Shown in pieces: positions 41,020 through 46,404 of a stretch of 64,000 nucleotides of DNA (positions are counted from its first letter, which is position 1; each line of letters starts with the position of its first letter). Made by a program: the position numbers and the translations under genes. Location of the stretch: NCBI GenBank assembly GCA_022072405.1, contig JAJVHX010000008.1, forward strand, positions 62,001 through 126,000, written 5' to 3'. This stretch comes from Phycisphaerae bacterium. Lineage in GTDB: Bacteria > Planctomycetota > Phycisphaerae > UBA1845 > CAIVHJ01. The notes under the pieces are model-generated. The model did not search any database. It worked only from the letters and a program-made list of their open reading frames with translations, and was not told where the DNA came from.

Positions 41020-41925
41020 TTAGCCAAGCGACGGAGCTGTCAGAAGCCGGGCCAGCCAATCATCCTGCTGCACTTGCGTCAAGCGGGCGAATAACCGGCA
41101 CAGGAGCAAGCTGGGCTCACCGCCGGTCTGCTCCAATATTTCCCACAACCAGGAATGCTGCGCGGCCGATTCATGTTCACTCAGCAGCCGCTCAAACTGC
41201 GCAACGCGCCAGTGCGGTTCGTCTGCCTCAGCCGCCGTGTCATGCGTTGCCCGCAAAAGCAACAATTGGCAATCCCGATCCTGTTGCAATTCCTGTCGCA
41301 TCAGGTTGAGCAGCTGTCGCTCACAACCCGCCACCCGTGAATAGCTGGAACGGGTTTCGCGGGCGATCTGGCGGAGCGGTGTTTTCTCCTGCAGCGTGGA
41401 AATCAGCAACCGTTCATCCACCAGCCGATCAATCAGGATATCGCGGTCACCCCGCCGACCGGTCGATTTCTTGGCCCGCACCCCTGCACGACGGGCTGCC
41501 TCACGCAAGCGGTCATGTAGCTGTTCGTTGACGCTGACACCGGCGGCGGGTTCGTGTCGCTGATCGACGGGATCGATCTCCAGCGAGTGAATTACCGGGA
41601 ACCCACCCTCGTCCGGGCGATGACGATCACGGTGGCGCAACTGGGTGCGCATCGGCACGCGAATAGTCGAGTTCTGTTCATACAAAGCCTGGCTGATGGT
41701 CTGCTGAATCCGCCGCTGCGCATAAGCCGCAAAGGGAATCTGGCTCGCCGGATCGTAGTGTTCCGCTGCACGGATCAATCCCAGGCAGCCTTCCTGGTAG
41801 AGATCTGCCGCCTCGCGATGGGCATGGTGTCGCGATGGCCGATAGCGGCGCAATACCTTCTGAACCAGTTGCAGATGCTCATTAACCCAACCTTGGCGTT
41901 CGTCGGATAAGGCGGTGCGTGACAT
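41020..41925 (-). CDS. Sigma-70 family RNA polymerase sigma factor
   Basis: 301 residues, with AAGGGGGT five bases before ATG 41925. Region 2 is clear: DLYQEGCLGLIRAAEHYDP, then FAAYAQRRIQQTISQALYEQNSTIRVP (the 2.4/3.0-type segment). Region 3/4 homology is weaker: about 120 residues with a helix-turn-helix-like TPLRQIARETRSSYSRVAGCERQLL. The C-terminal half is unusual and diverges from standard RpoD/SigF proteins. It is the nearest regulator to the divergent RiPP-like cassette, with 422 bp between them. A role in controlling that cassette is only a suggestion. Confidence 0.82.
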   Translation of the reverse strand: MSRTALSDERQGWVNEHLQLVQKVLRRYRPSRHHAHREAADLYQEGCLGLIRAAEHYDPASQIPFAAYAQRRIQQTISQALYEQNSTIRVPMRTQLRHRDRHRPDEGGFPVIHSLEIDPVDQRHEPAAGVSVNEQLHDRLREAARRAGVRAKKSTGRRGDRDILIDRLVDERLLISTLQEKTPLRQIARETRSSYSRVAGCERQLLNLMRQELQQDRDCQLLLLRATHDTAAEADEPHWRVAQFERLLSEHESAAQHSWLWEILEQTGGEPSLLLCRLFARLTQVQQDDWLARLLTAPSLG

Positions 41926-42347: not shown

Positions 42348-42686
42348 ATGTCAGGAAAAATTACCAGGCTGAGTCTGCGTCGTGAAACGGTACGGGTGCT
42401 GAATGATCAGAATCTGCAAGTCGCCGCCGGCGGAATTGCCAGTTTCAGCATCATTCCCTTAACGCTTTCTTACTGTCCGCCACGGACCATTTCGGTCTGC
42501 CCAACGCTTTCTGTCTGTCCGACGATAACGGCTTGTCCGACACTTTCGGCCTGTCCACCGCAGACGATTTCCTATTGTCCGGTCACGGTTCCCAGTTCGG
42601 TTATTTCCGTGATCCCGAACAAACCGTTTAATCCGATTTCACCGGATCTGGCTGGTAACAGCAGTGCGAGTCTGATGATCGGTTAA
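42348..42686 (+). CDS. RiPP-like precursor peptide 1 (GG leader, six T-x-S/T-x-C-P repeats)
   Basis: 112 residues. ATG 42348 was chosen because AGGGAGA lies seven bases upstream; a GTG at 42312 is unlikely. Leader: LSLRRETVRVLNDQNLQVAAGG, with Gly28-Gly29 as the likely cleavage point. The core has six cysteines at 43, 51, 57, 63, 69 and 77, spaced 8-6-6-6-8. Each is the fifth residue of the hexad T-[LI]-[ST]-x-C-P (TLSYCP, TISVCP, TLSVCP, TITACP, TLSACP, TISYCP). A conserved follower VTVPSSVISVIPN comes next, then an uncharged tail. The leader matches the LxLxxETxRxL...GG type of class I lanthipeptide precursors. The Ser/Thr residues two and four before every Cys could form lanthionine bridges; that is inference. 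Confidence 0.8.
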   Translation: MSGKITRLSLRRETVRVLNDQNLQVAAGGIASFSIIPLTLSYCPPRTISVCPTLSVCPTITACPTLSACPPQTISYCPVTVPSSVISVIPNKPFNPISPDLAGNSSASLMIG

Positions 42687-42726
42687 ACCGGGTCGTCATA
42701 CGGGTTGTGCATTTTTATTTGAGCAT

Positions 42727-42754
42727 TAGCGGCCAGCGACTCAGCCGGCCGCTA
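42727..42754. promoter_or_regulatory. Inverted repeat between precursors 1 and 2
   Basis: A perfect 8-bp stem TAGCGGCC/GGCCGCTA with a 12-base loop, 40 bases after the first precursor stop, followed by GC-rich sequence rather than a T-run. It could reduce or stabilise expression between the genes. Confidence 0.4.
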
Positions 42755-42841
42755 GAACGTCGGCGGTTGCAACGGCCGGCGCGGCGGTCGACCGCTGCAG
42801 AATTTACTTCACTCTGGCAATCTGATATACGGAGTTTACAC

Positions 42842-43183
42842 ATGTCCGATGAACGTAAGAAAATGCGATTGGCGCTGAATCGTGAAACTGTACGCCTGTT
42901 GAATGATCAGCAGTTGCATCGCGCCGGTGGAGCGGCATTTTCCGGAACCACACTGACGACGGGGCCGATCAGTATTGTGATCAGTGTGACGGTTTGCCAG
43001 TCGATCACCCTCTGCGTACCGCAAACGATTTCCGCTTGTTTTCCGCAATCGATTACGGTTTGTCAAACGGGATCCTGTTCGATAGTCTCGATCATTACAC
43101 CGAGCGTTCCCAGTTCTGTTCGCCCCATGCCCGAAACCGAATCAATACCACCGTATTGGATCGATGGCGGGAGTAATGTTTAA
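42842..43183 (+). CDS. RiPP-like precursor peptide 2
   Basis: 113 residues from ATG 42842, with GGAG seven bases upstream; the frame is open further upstream but lacks a start signal. The leader MRLALNRETVRLLNDQQLHRAGG is very close to that of precursor 1, with Gly29-Gly30. The core has five cysteines at 52, 58, 66, 74 and 79; the first four end [ST]-[VI]-[ST]-x-C units (SVTVC, SITLC, TISAC, SITVC). TPSVPSSVRPMP near the C-terminus matches the VPSSV follower of the other two precursors. Probably the same kind of peptide with a shorter repeat array. Confidence 0.78.
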   Translation: MSDERKKMRLALNRETVRLLNDQQLHRAGGAAFSGTTLTTGPISIVISVTVCQSITLCVPQTISACFPQSITVCQTGSCSIVSIITPSVPSSVRPMPETESIPPYWIDGGSNV

Positions 43184-43227
43184 CCAGTGCATTAATCAGA
43201 ATTGAACCTTTTAGGGGAGGTACGTAC

Positions 43228-43563
43228 ATGGCGACTAATCTGCGGGGATTGAAGTTACAAATCAACCGGGAAACCATTCGTGTGCTGGCGGATCGGTCAC
43301 TGCAAGACGCCGCTGGAGGAACCAGTTCACTCTCGCTGATCCAGACGGCACCGTGTGCCACGATGATGACCGGTTGTTGTCAGAGCATCACGCTGCCACG
43401 ACCAATTGCCATACCCCAGCCGGTATCCCTGATATCGGTGTCAGTGACTTTACCGATATGCCCTTCGTTTCAGTGCACAGCCGGTTGCTCGGTTACCGTG
43501 CCCAGTTCGGTGATCTCAGCGGTTCCGAATCCACAACCGGCCCAGCGCCCGATGTATGTCTGA
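43228..43563 (+). CDS. RiPP-like precursor peptide 3
   Basis: 111 residues from ATG 43228, with AGGGGAGG seven bases upstream. The leader LKLQINRETIRVLADRSLQ ends DAAGG, with Gly30-Gly31. Six cysteines are at 43, 50, 51, 78, 83 and 87, so the repeat rhythm of the first precursor is mostly lost, though SVTLPICP is kept. The end SVTVPSSVISAVPN matches that of precursor 1 almost exactly. The three genes therefore share leader and follower while their cores have diverged. A terminator follows 44 bases after the stop. Confidence 0.78.
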   Translation: MATNLRGLKLQINRETIRVLADRSLQDAAGGTSSLSLIQTAPCATMMTGCCQSITLPRPIAIPQPVSLISVSVTLPICPSFQCTAGCSVTVPSSVISAVPNPQPAQRPMYV

Positions 43564-43607
43564 TTAGGGCGATGGTGCATGAGGCTGGGTTGATGATCCA
43601 TCCCGAG

Positions 43608-43654
43608 GCAGGTAGCAGAACACGCTCCGAGTTGTGCTGCCTGCTTTTATTTTA
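43608..43654 (+). terminator. Rho-independent terminator of the precursor cassette
   Basis: The arms GCAGGTAGCAGAAC and GTTGTGCTGCCTGC form a 14-bp stem with one wobble and one mismatch, followed by TTTTATTTTA. It ends the three-gene precursor unit. Confidence 0.8.
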
Positions 43655-43665
43655 CCGGCGGTTAA

Positions 43666-46404
43666 TTAGCTCAGTCGCGGCGGCGTTTTATCGGGATGGA
43701 TGGCACCCAATTCGAGAACCTTGGTCAGTAAAGCAGCATCCACCTGGCCGCGCTGCAGCAGGCTGTGCAGGGCGGTATAAGTAATGTGGTAGCGGTTGAT
43801 TTCGAAGAAATCGCGGAGTTCGGCTCGGGCTTCGCTGCGACCGAAACCGTCGGTCCCCAGGGTGGTCAGCCGACCCGGCAACCAGGGCGAAATCTGATCC
43901 GGCAGGGTGCGTACGTAATCTGTGGCGGCCACGATCGGCCAATCTTCTCCCGCCAGCTGCTGATGTAAAAAAGCAACGCGCGGCGGTTCGGTTGGATGCA
44001 ACCGATTCCAGCGTTCCACATCCATGGCATCGCGCTTCAGTTCGGTATAGCTGGTAATGCTCCATACGTCAGCCGCCACGTTGAACTGCTCCGCCAGGAT
44101 TTCCTGCGCACGCAACGCTTCGTTGAGTATCGGTCCGCTGCCGAAAAGATGCATCCGGGGGCGCGTACCGGCCGCTTCGCGATATTGCTCGAAGGTACGG
44201 AATTTGTACATTCCGCGAATGATGCCTTCCTCGCAGCCTTCGGGTTTGGAGAGTTGCGCATAAGGTTCGTTATAGAGGGCCAGATAATAGAAGATGTCCT
44301 GCCGCAGGTCATACATCCGCACCAGGCCATTGTGGACGATATGGACGACTTCGTAGGCAAAGGCCGGGTCATAGGAGAGGCAGTTGGGTACGGTGGAAGC
44401 GTGCAGCAGGCTGTGGCCATCCTGATGCTGCAGGCCTTCACCGGCCAGCGTGGTTCGTCCGGCGGTGCAGCCGCACAGAAACCCTTTGCTGCGGGCGTCG
44501 GCGGCGGCCCAGATACTGTCGCCAATCCGTTGAAAACCAAACATCGAATAAAACAGGAAGAAGGGGATCGTATTGACGCCGTGAATCGCATACGCACTAC
44601 CCGCAGCAGTAAACGAAGCCAGGGAACCGGCTTCGGTGATCCCTTCTTCGAGGATCTGGCCGTTCTTTGCTTCGCGGTAGTAAAGAAACAGATGCGAATC
44701 CACCGGTTCGTAAAGCTGACCGGTGTGTGCGTAGATGCCATACTTGCGGAACAGGGCATCCATACCGAACGTGCGGGCTTCATCGGGCACGATCGGCACG
44801 ATCAGGTTGCCCATATAAGGATCATCCATCAGGCGGGCCAGCATGCGGACAAAAGCCATGGTGGTGCTGGCTTCGCGATCGCCGGACCCGCTCATGAATT
44901 CGTTGAACATGGTGACATCGGGCAGCCGCAGGGGCTGACTGCGGTTGACCCGTGCCGGTACAAATCCGCCCAGCCGGTGACGACACGCATAAAGATACTC
45001 ATAGAGATCGCTGTCGGCCCGCGGGCGGTAGAAGGGGGCGTGAGCAATTTTGTCATCGGGGATGGGCAGATCGAAACGATCGCGGAAATGGCGGAGATCG
45101 TCGAGATCGAGTTTCTTCTGCTGGTGAGTAATGTTTTTGCCTTCCCCGGCGTCACCCAGGCCGTAGCCTTTTACCGTCTTGGCCAGGATCACGGTGGGCG
45201 AACCCTGATGATGAAAAGCGCGATGATAGGCGGCGTAGACCTTCAGCGGGTCGTGACCACCGCGCTTCAGGGCGTAGATATCCTCATCGGTCAGCGCTTC
45301 GACCAGTCGGGTCGTTTCCGGATATTTTCCGAAGAAATGCTGGCGGACAAAGCCGCCGCCCTCGACTTTGTACTTCTGATATTCACCGTCAACCACTTCG
45401 CCCATGCGCTGGACCAGTCGACCGGATTCATCGGCATCGAGTAATGGATCCCAGTTGCCGCCCCAGATGACTTTCAGGACGTTCCATCCGGCCCCCCGAA
45501 AGGCCGCTTCAAGTTCCTGGATAATCTGCCCATTACCGCGCACCGGTCCATCCAACCGCTGCAGATTGCAGTTGATCACCCAGATCAGGTTATCGAGTCG
45601 TTCGCGCGACGCCAGCGTGATCGATCCCAGTGCTTCCGGTTCATCCATCTCCCCATCACCCATGAAGGCCCAGACCTTGGAGCGGCTGGTATCGCAGATC
45701 CCGCGATCGAGCAGATAGCGGTTGAAGCGTGCCTGATAGATGGAACTGAGCGGTCCCAGACCCATCGAGACCGTGGGGTACTGCCACAGTTTGGGCATCA
45801 GCCAGGGATGCGGATAAGAGGAGAGACCGCCCCCCGTCGCCAGCTCGCGGCGATAATTATGCATCAGTGAGGGATCGAGCCGCCGCTCCACGTAGGCCCG
45901 GGCGTAGATGCCCGGTGCGGCGTGGCCCTGAAAATAGATCTGATCTCCGGCAAACGGGCCGTCGGGCGCCCGGAAAAAGTGATTGAAGGCCACCTCATAG
46001 AGTGTCGCTGCTGACGCATAGGTGCTGATGTGGCCGCCGATGCCCTCGCTCTTGCGATTGGCCCGCACGACCAAGGCCATCGCGTTCCAGCGGATAATGC
46101 TCTTGATTTTCCGTTCCAGGGCGATGTCGCCGGGGAAGGCGGGTTGCTCGCTGTGGTGAATGGTGTTGATATAAGGCGTGTTGGCGCTGAAGGGTAAGGC
46201 GACACCGTGGGCATGGCTGCGCTGAATGAGTTGCTGCAGCAGAAAGCGGGCCCGTTCGGGACCGGCCTGCTGAATAACCGCATCGAGTGAATCAACCCAT
46301 TCACGAGTTTCCTGGGGGTCGTGATCCTGCAGGTGATAGATGCTCATATTATCGAGAATACTCCGGCCCAGCGGGCCTTCTAGACATTGGGGATCCAGGC
46401 GCAT
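43666..46404 (-). CDS. aceE: Pyruvate dehydrogenase E1 component, homodimeric type
   Basis: 912 residues. It decarboxylates pyruvate with thiamine diphosphate and passes the acetyl group to the E2 lipoyl domain. An early block NAMALVVRANRKSEGIGGHISTYAS is typical, with IYFQGHAAPGIYARAYVE. The ThDP motif is GDGEMDEPEALG, followed by VINCNLQRLDGPVRGNG. Later blocks include FLFYSMFGFQRIGDSIWAAAD and EGLQHQDGHSL. GGAG precedes the start. No E2 or E3 gene is adjacent; they must lie elsewhere. Confidence 0.95.
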   Translation of the reverse strand: MRLDPQCLEGPLGRSILDNMSIYHLQDHDPQETREWVDSLDAVIQQAGPERARFLLQQLIQRSHAHGVALPFSANTPYINTIHHSEQPAFPGDIALERKIKSIIRWNAMALVVRANRKSEGIGGHISTYASAATLYEVAFNHFFRAPDGPFAGDQIYFQGHAAPGIYARAYVERRLDPSLMHNYRRELATGGGLSSYPHPWLMPKLWQYPTVSMGLGPLSSIYQARFNRYLLDRGICDTSRSKVWAFMGDGEMDEPEALGSITLASRERLDNLIWVINCNLQRLDGPVRGNGQIIQELEAAFRGAGWNVLKVIWGGNWDPLLDADESGRLVQRMGEVVDGEYQKYKVEGGGFVRQHFFGKYPETTRLVEALTDEDIYALKRGGHDPLKVYAAYHRAFHHQGSPTVILAKTVKGYGLGDAGEGKNITHQQKKLDLDDLRHFRDRFDLPIPDDKIAHAPFYRPRADSDLYEYLYACRHRLGGFVPARVNRSQPLRLPDVTMFNEFMSGSGDREASTTMAFVRMLARLMDDPYMGNLIVPIVPDEARTFGMDALFRKYGIYAHTGQLYEPVDSHLFLYYREAKNGQILEEGITEAGSLASFTAAGSAYAIHGVNTIPFFLFYSMFGFQRIGDSIWAAADARSKGFLCGCTAGRTTLAGEGLQHQDGHSLLHASTVPNCLSYDPAFAYEVVHIVHNGLVRMYDLRQDIFYYLALYNEPYAQLSKPEGCEEGIIRGMYKFRTFEQYREAAGTRPRMHLFGSGPILNEALRAQEILAEQFNVAADVWSITSYTELKRDAMDVERWNRLHPTEPPRVAFLHQQLAGEDWPIVAATDYVRTLPDQISPWLPGRLTTLGTDGFGRSEARAELRDFFEINRYHITYTALHSLLQRGQVDAALLTKVLELGAIHPDKTPPRLS

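Follow-up and report, generated by a model that had tools for sequence, protein, structure and literature searches.

The three small genes considered here, which lie in a window of 64 kb (the whole stretch of DNA that was analysed), are likely precursors (LanA) of class I lanthipeptides, and they appear to belong to a dispersed family that is modified in trans by a single LanBC pair encoded elsewhere in the same genome. We estimate the probability of this reading at about 0.85. Dehydration, ring formation, export and function are inferred, and neither chemical nor expression data are available.

The three-gene cassette

The precursor genes are consecutive on the forward strand, and each has an ATG start with a ribosome binding site 5' of it. 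Gene 1 (42348-42686; leader 42348-42434, core 42435-42683) encodes 112 aa after the site GGGAG, gene 2 (42842-43183; leader 42842-42931, core 42932-43180) encodes 113 aa after GGAG, and gene 3 (43228-43563; leader 43228-43320, core 43321-43560) encodes 111 aa after GGGGAGG. The end of the unit is marked by an element resembling an intrinsic terminator (43606-43656, forward strand), in which a hairpin at 43606-43646 is followed by the T-rich tail UUUUAUUUU. The hairpin was not picked up by a simple consensus scan and is visible by folding only, with a z-score of -3.8 and no shuffled sequence being equally stable. On the 5' side the cassette is flanked by a divergent sigma-factor-like gene (41020-41925, reverse strand) and on the 3' side by a convergent gene (43666-46404, reverse strand), which we take to be pyruvate dehydrogenase E1; both neighbours are probably unconnected with the cassette.

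The first 30 residues or so are common to the three products and follow the pattern LxLx[KR]ETxRxLxxxxL...GG, which occurs exactly three times in the window. All three leaders match the NCBIfam model of class I lanthipeptide leaders, NF038153, and their single-protein scores of 17-20 bits fall just below its cut-off of 22; when the genome was searched with this model, five members of the family reached the cut-off, gene 1 with exactly 22.0. Scans against NCBIfam and Pfam gave no match of the cassette leaders to the Nif11 family, NF038153 being found instead, and the FNLD motif of nisin-like leaders is absent from them, the leaders reading LxLx[KR]ETxRxL. Class I precursors that occur with C39 peptidases have been described as carrying LxLxKx5L, Gly-Gly leaders (PMC7268733), and the cassette leaders show the same pattern. 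Within the trio the leaders are 40-64% identical and the cores 30-39%; in other paralogue pairs the conservation of leader and core differs little.

The cores are less uniform. In gene 1 the six cysteines are spaced 8-6-6-6-8, and each sits inside a hexad T[LI][ST].CP (TLSYCP, TISVCP, TLSVCP, TITACP, TLSACP and TISYCP; 42462-42581, forward strand). When the 83-residue core was shuffled 100,000 times, the number of such hexads averaged 0.00 and never reached six. The units are written in differing synonymous codons, which argues against a fresh repeat or duplication of DNA and suggests that the pattern is being kept at the protein level. Gene 2 contains four [ST]-[VI]-[ST]-x-C units (42983-43063, forward strand), the shuffled mean for [ST]x[ST]xC being 0.43 (P=1.1e-4). 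The core of gene 3 has six cysteines and no [ST]x[ST]xC unit, only four looser [ST]xxC matches (P=0.027 by shuffling, uncorrected). Taken over the trio, there is a good match between Cys and Ser/Thr.

The original prediction, made from the sequence alone, thus held for three small genes with their own ribosome binding sites and a shared leader, for the perfect hexads of gene 1, for the four units of gene 2 with mere traces in gene 3, and for the terminator, provided that folding and not the consensus scan is used. Its remark that leaders of this form occur in class I lanthipeptide precursors is supported by the matches to NF038153. The claim of a shared follower containing VPSSV is weak: the longer segment VPSSVIS[VA][IV]PN is found in genes 1 and 3 only, gene 2 keeps VPSSV alone, and a role as a follower peptide has no support beyond genes 1 and 3. 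It is possible that this segment is just a part of the core.

The enzyme operon and the dispersed precursors

The genome (3.57 Mb in 28 contigs) contains one LanC and one LanB, encoded side by side at about 363.3-368.0 kb of contig C2, which is not the contig of the cassette. They belong to an intact, tightly packed operon with the order HlyD, C39-peptidase ABC exporter, a protein with an aldo-keto reductase (AKR)-like fold, LanC, LanB and S51 peptidase. LanB is full-length (1118 aa; PF04738, E 9e-157; PF14028, E 7e-61), has both glutamylation and elimination domains and can be aligned to its homologues MibB and NisB. LanC (PF05147, E 5.5e-38) retains the positions D141, H212, C284, C330 and H331 of NisC, among them Cys284, Cys330, His331 and His212, which bear on the zinc ligands, so that active-site residues are shown to be conserved. 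No match to LanM (PF13575) was found in the genome, and the control genomes gave no PF13575 match either, which leaves this search without a positive control. The proposal that maturation acts in trans is supported, since LanB, LanC and the C39 exporter are located in one distant operon, and the view that the cassette is not of lanthipeptide type because no synthetase lies nearby was rejected on finding this operon.

A profile built from 20 leaders and applied to the whole genome revealed 23 leader-bearing precursor genes, which occupy 15 places and are spread over 9 contigs; the leaders of three (C14:17410, C3:201551 and C2:144381) were not among the 20 that make up the profile. The original prediction had suggested a genome search for maturation enzymes and a count of further leaders, and the outcome was the operon and a family reaching far beyond three genes. 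All leaders found in the genome form one family. No precursor lies within 34 kb of the LanBC operon, the nearest of the 23 being 34.8 kb away, and the pairing of enzymes with substrates therefore rests on exclusivity and on the leader family. Class I precursors are usually encoded next to LanBC, although this location does not strictly define the class. All 23 frames are open, and most genes are preceded by a good ribosome binding site, typically GGAG; two loci, L041 (C6:237673) and L047 (C2:144381), have no clear ATG start with such a site.

While the leader is kept, the cores vary across the family. They are 53-90 aa long and include the ladder of the cassette, sequences rich in Ser, Ala and Val with few Cys, and cores with YCPTAAC, GTCxGSGC or a C-T-A-P repeat. 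About nine of the 23 (L025, L027, L028, L029, L032, L033, L034, L038 and L044, on several contigs) are 55-90 aa long, consist of Ser/Thr to 25-38%, are rich in Ala and Val and have one or two Cys; many of these open with a Trp-rich stretch ending in Cys. Many dehydro residues in these cores therefore could not be ringed, and many cores of the family would not be ringed throughout. A second kind of repeated core was observed in L046 (C3:201551, reverse strand), with eight core cysteines and a recurring unit C-T-A-P-x-T-V-x-x-C.

The AKR-fold protein of the operon (L002:18372-19307 on C2), which is encoded between the C39 exporter and LanC, has no match in Pfam or NCBIfam. A weak AKR match was obtained in a PDB profile search, and the predicted fold is AKR-like (pLDDT 75; best PDB E 4.9e-9). 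Its homologues (L077:2327-3193, L076:3023-3907, L123:9081-9959 and L105:9046-9972) were found beside LanB in G065, G365, G274, L105 and L123, so the protein recurs next to LanB in both Planctomycetota and Myxococcota. It may be a new tailoring enzyme of lanthipeptides which reduces dehydro residues in Cys-poor cores; by our reading, the usual catalytic Lys and His of AKR enzymes are not kept, and a reductase role is therefore only a lead.

Related leaders and LanB proteins in other genomes

The original prediction had also proposed a check for related leaders in other genomes, and such leaders were found, often directly beside LanB and in other phyla as well. Leaders of the same type adjoin LanB, in ones and twos, in G263, G351, G365 and Paenibacillus, and the tie between leader and LanB is therefore independent of the genome studied here. 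Six related genomes without LanB contained no leaders of this family. In a sample of the phylum both are rare, LanB being present in 9 of 392 genomes and the leader in 3 of 392. The nearest relative (G001, same family, a Phycisphaerales MAG of the Planctomycetota) has five leader-bearing precursors on two contigs other than that of its LanB. In this relative (contig C145, L072:4195-8817, reverse strand), LanC and LanB are fused into one protein of 1540 aa with the cyclase N-terminal and the dehydratase C-terminal. Two precursors found beside LanB in Myxococcales (L095:13158-13754, reverse strand) are both without Cys, and one of them carries a tandem RP[LV]SSV[KR]P repeat.

A tree was computed for 81 LanB proteins by a quick LG+G4 search in which many rows differ in amino-acid composition; in it the LanB of this genome (G000) falls into a set of eight with an SH-aLRT support of 96. 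The other members are G001, G274, G452 (Phycisphaerae RS_17_44) and four Acidobacteriota, G481, G458, G453 and G454. At E <= 0.001 the leader counts are 23 in G000, 5 in G001, 0 in G274 (67% complete), 9 in G452, 2 in G481, 7 in G458, 20 in G453 and 38 in G454. Five or more leaders occur in six of the 57 LanB-bearing genomes (5, 7, 9, 20, 23 and 38), all six inside the set; the 49 measured LanB genomes outside it have four leaders at most. It is thus shown that high leader numbers go together with one set of LanB proteins. If the genomes are taken as independent, which is not fully true, the six high counts would all lie inside the set with a probability of 8e-7.

Most leaders of the profile come from this genome and from genomes related to it, and a bias toward near genomes is possible. 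As a check, one match each was obtained in two Thermoanaerobaculia that contributed leaders to the profile and lie outside the LanB set; in two members of the set that contributed none, the matches numbered 20 and 38. The Acidobacteriota precursors of the set are short and mostly Cys-rich, with many unrelated cores on many contigs. In the Thermoanaerobaculia MAGs G454 and G453 (L186-L220), approximately 38 and 20 precursors, respectively, are spread over many contigs. In G452 most precursors stand in tandem on one contig, and dispersal therefore varies within the LanB set.

Proposed mechanism, rival explanations and significance

In the mechanism that we propose, the shared LxLx[KR]x5L leader would dock on, and so recruit, the only LanB and LanC of the genome. 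LanB would dehydrate Ser and Thr of the core with the use of glutamyl-tRNA, as in characterised LanBs, LanC would add Cys thiols to the dehydro residues to give thioether rings, and the C39-peptidase ABC exporter of the operon would cut after GG or GA and then export the core. For gene 1 we suppose that T(i) of every T-x-[ST]-x-C unit would be linked with C(i+4) around one dehydro residue, so that six small rings would follow one another. This ring pattern is preferred because the spacing fits ring A of nisin, whose sequence is S-I-S-L-C; being drawn by analogy, the preference could as readily prove wrong as right. Closure between the middle [ST] and C(i+2), the alternative, would make an unusually small ring. 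The ladder of Ser/Thr-Cys rings put forward originally remains an inference with respect to both dehydration and ring closure, and gene 3 is without the ladder. That LanBC acts on these leaders at all, and that the products are exported, is likewise inferred. As to function, the products are likely a secreted mixture of peptides directed against competitors, or signals, which is again an inference. The evidence supports assignment to class I as well as maturation in trans, and both are likely; against them may be held the leader scores of single proteins below the cut-off, the missing ladder of gene 3 and the Cys-poor members of the family.

The most serious rival explanation, which is possible, accepts that LanB dehydrates the cores but supposes that few rings are formed: many of the dehydro residues would stay as they are or become D-amino acids, perhaps by means of the AKR-fold protein. 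Most products of the family would then be dehydrated peptides or peptides rich in D-residues, and the Cys ladder of the cassette would be a special case. It is favoured by the nine or so Ser/Thr-rich cores with one or two Cys, by the location of the AKR-fold protein, which is encoded between exporter and LanC here and has homologues next to LanB elsewhere, and by the known ability of LanJ enzymes in classes II and V to reduce dehydro residues (PMC11519912). On the other hand, LanJ enzymes of the known classes depend on zinc, flavin or F420 and are not AKR enzymes (PMC11519912), the catalytic Lys and His are apparently not kept, and Cys and Ser/Thr match well in the trio.

It is unlikely that the genes encode unmodified secreted or surface proteins which are exported by the C39 system with their Cys in disulfides, LanBC having other substrates. 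Double-glycine leaders do also serve unmodified bacteriocins, and cores of 53-90 aa are long for lanthipeptides. However, the leader matches the class I model and is found next to LanB in other genomes; all leaders of the genome are of one family, and LanBC would be left without a substrate; moreover, T/S residues two and four positions before each Cys are needless for disulfides. Still less credible is a decaying cassette, in which dispersed duplicates of old lanthipeptide genes are no longer made. The two loci without a clear ATG and ribosome binding site, and the lack of a precursor beside LanBC, speak for it; the open frames, the mostly good ribosome binding sites, the pattern of gene 1 kept with different codons and the intact operon speak against it.

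Returning to dispersed class I precursors as the preferred reading, one enzyme serving many scattered precursors is already known in class II, namely from ProcM and SyncM with tens of precursors each (PMC10783134, PMC12328550), and the class I version may be new. Prochlorosins and synechococsins share with the present system one enzyme set, a common leader, variable cores and genes scattered over the genome, but they depend on a class II LanM and Nif11-type leaders, whereas LanB, LanC and LxLx[KR]x5L leaders are used here. To our knowledge, this enzyme-sharing layout has not been described outside marine cyanobacteria, which use another enzyme class. In the open-access literature searched, scattered systems were found in class II only, Acidobacteriota were reported with class II and III clusters, and no class I case with scattered precursors was met; most subscription journals were outside the scope of the search, and a precedent is not excluded.

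The largest survey, of more than 100,000 genomes, sought precursors within seven genes on either side of LanC and named prochlorosins as a blind spot (PMC7268733); its design left dispersed class I precursors out of view. The class I systems of that survey (NF038153) agree with ours in leader motif, GG site, LanB, LanC and C39 exporter, and differ in that their precursors are near LanC by the design of the survey, while here none of the 23 is near and the cores have 53-90 aa. The LanBC systems of Cystobacter, Corallococcus and Mycobacterium (PMC3951391) likewise have a double-glycine precursor and a bifunctional C39 LanT, but their precursor lies in the cluster, and no dispersed family was reported. 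Nisin is similar in having LanB and LanC homologues (NisB, NisC) and the [ST]-x-[ST]-x-C spacing of ring A; the present system differs from it in lacking FNLD, in a GG site instead of the NisP site, in six tandem units and in many precursors encoded in trans. Rings A and B of nisin hold the pyrophosphate of lipid II (PMC10257480).

A bolder reading, possible but less likely than not, would make this lineage of LanB proteins from Phycisphaerae and Acidobacteriota the equivalent of ProcM in class I. One promiscuous LanBC would then convert a dispersed library of 20-40 unrelated cores into lanthipeptides, with products here that include six tandem rings like ring A of nisin as well as Cys-poor, Ser-rich peptides finished by the AKR-fold protein as a new tailoring enzyme.

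Genome mining for lanthipeptides looks beside the enzyme genes, and dispersed class I precursors are overlooked in this way; in three genomes that carry this type of LanB, searching for the leader brought up 23, 20 and 38 precursors. Should LanBC prove as permissive as the diversity of the cores implies, it would offer a natural platform of class I for making peptide libraries. The six-fold run of rings resembling ring A would, if true, be an unusual product. In our opinion, the family would offer a second case, independent of cyanobacteria, for understanding why and how a dispersed library of precursors evolves.
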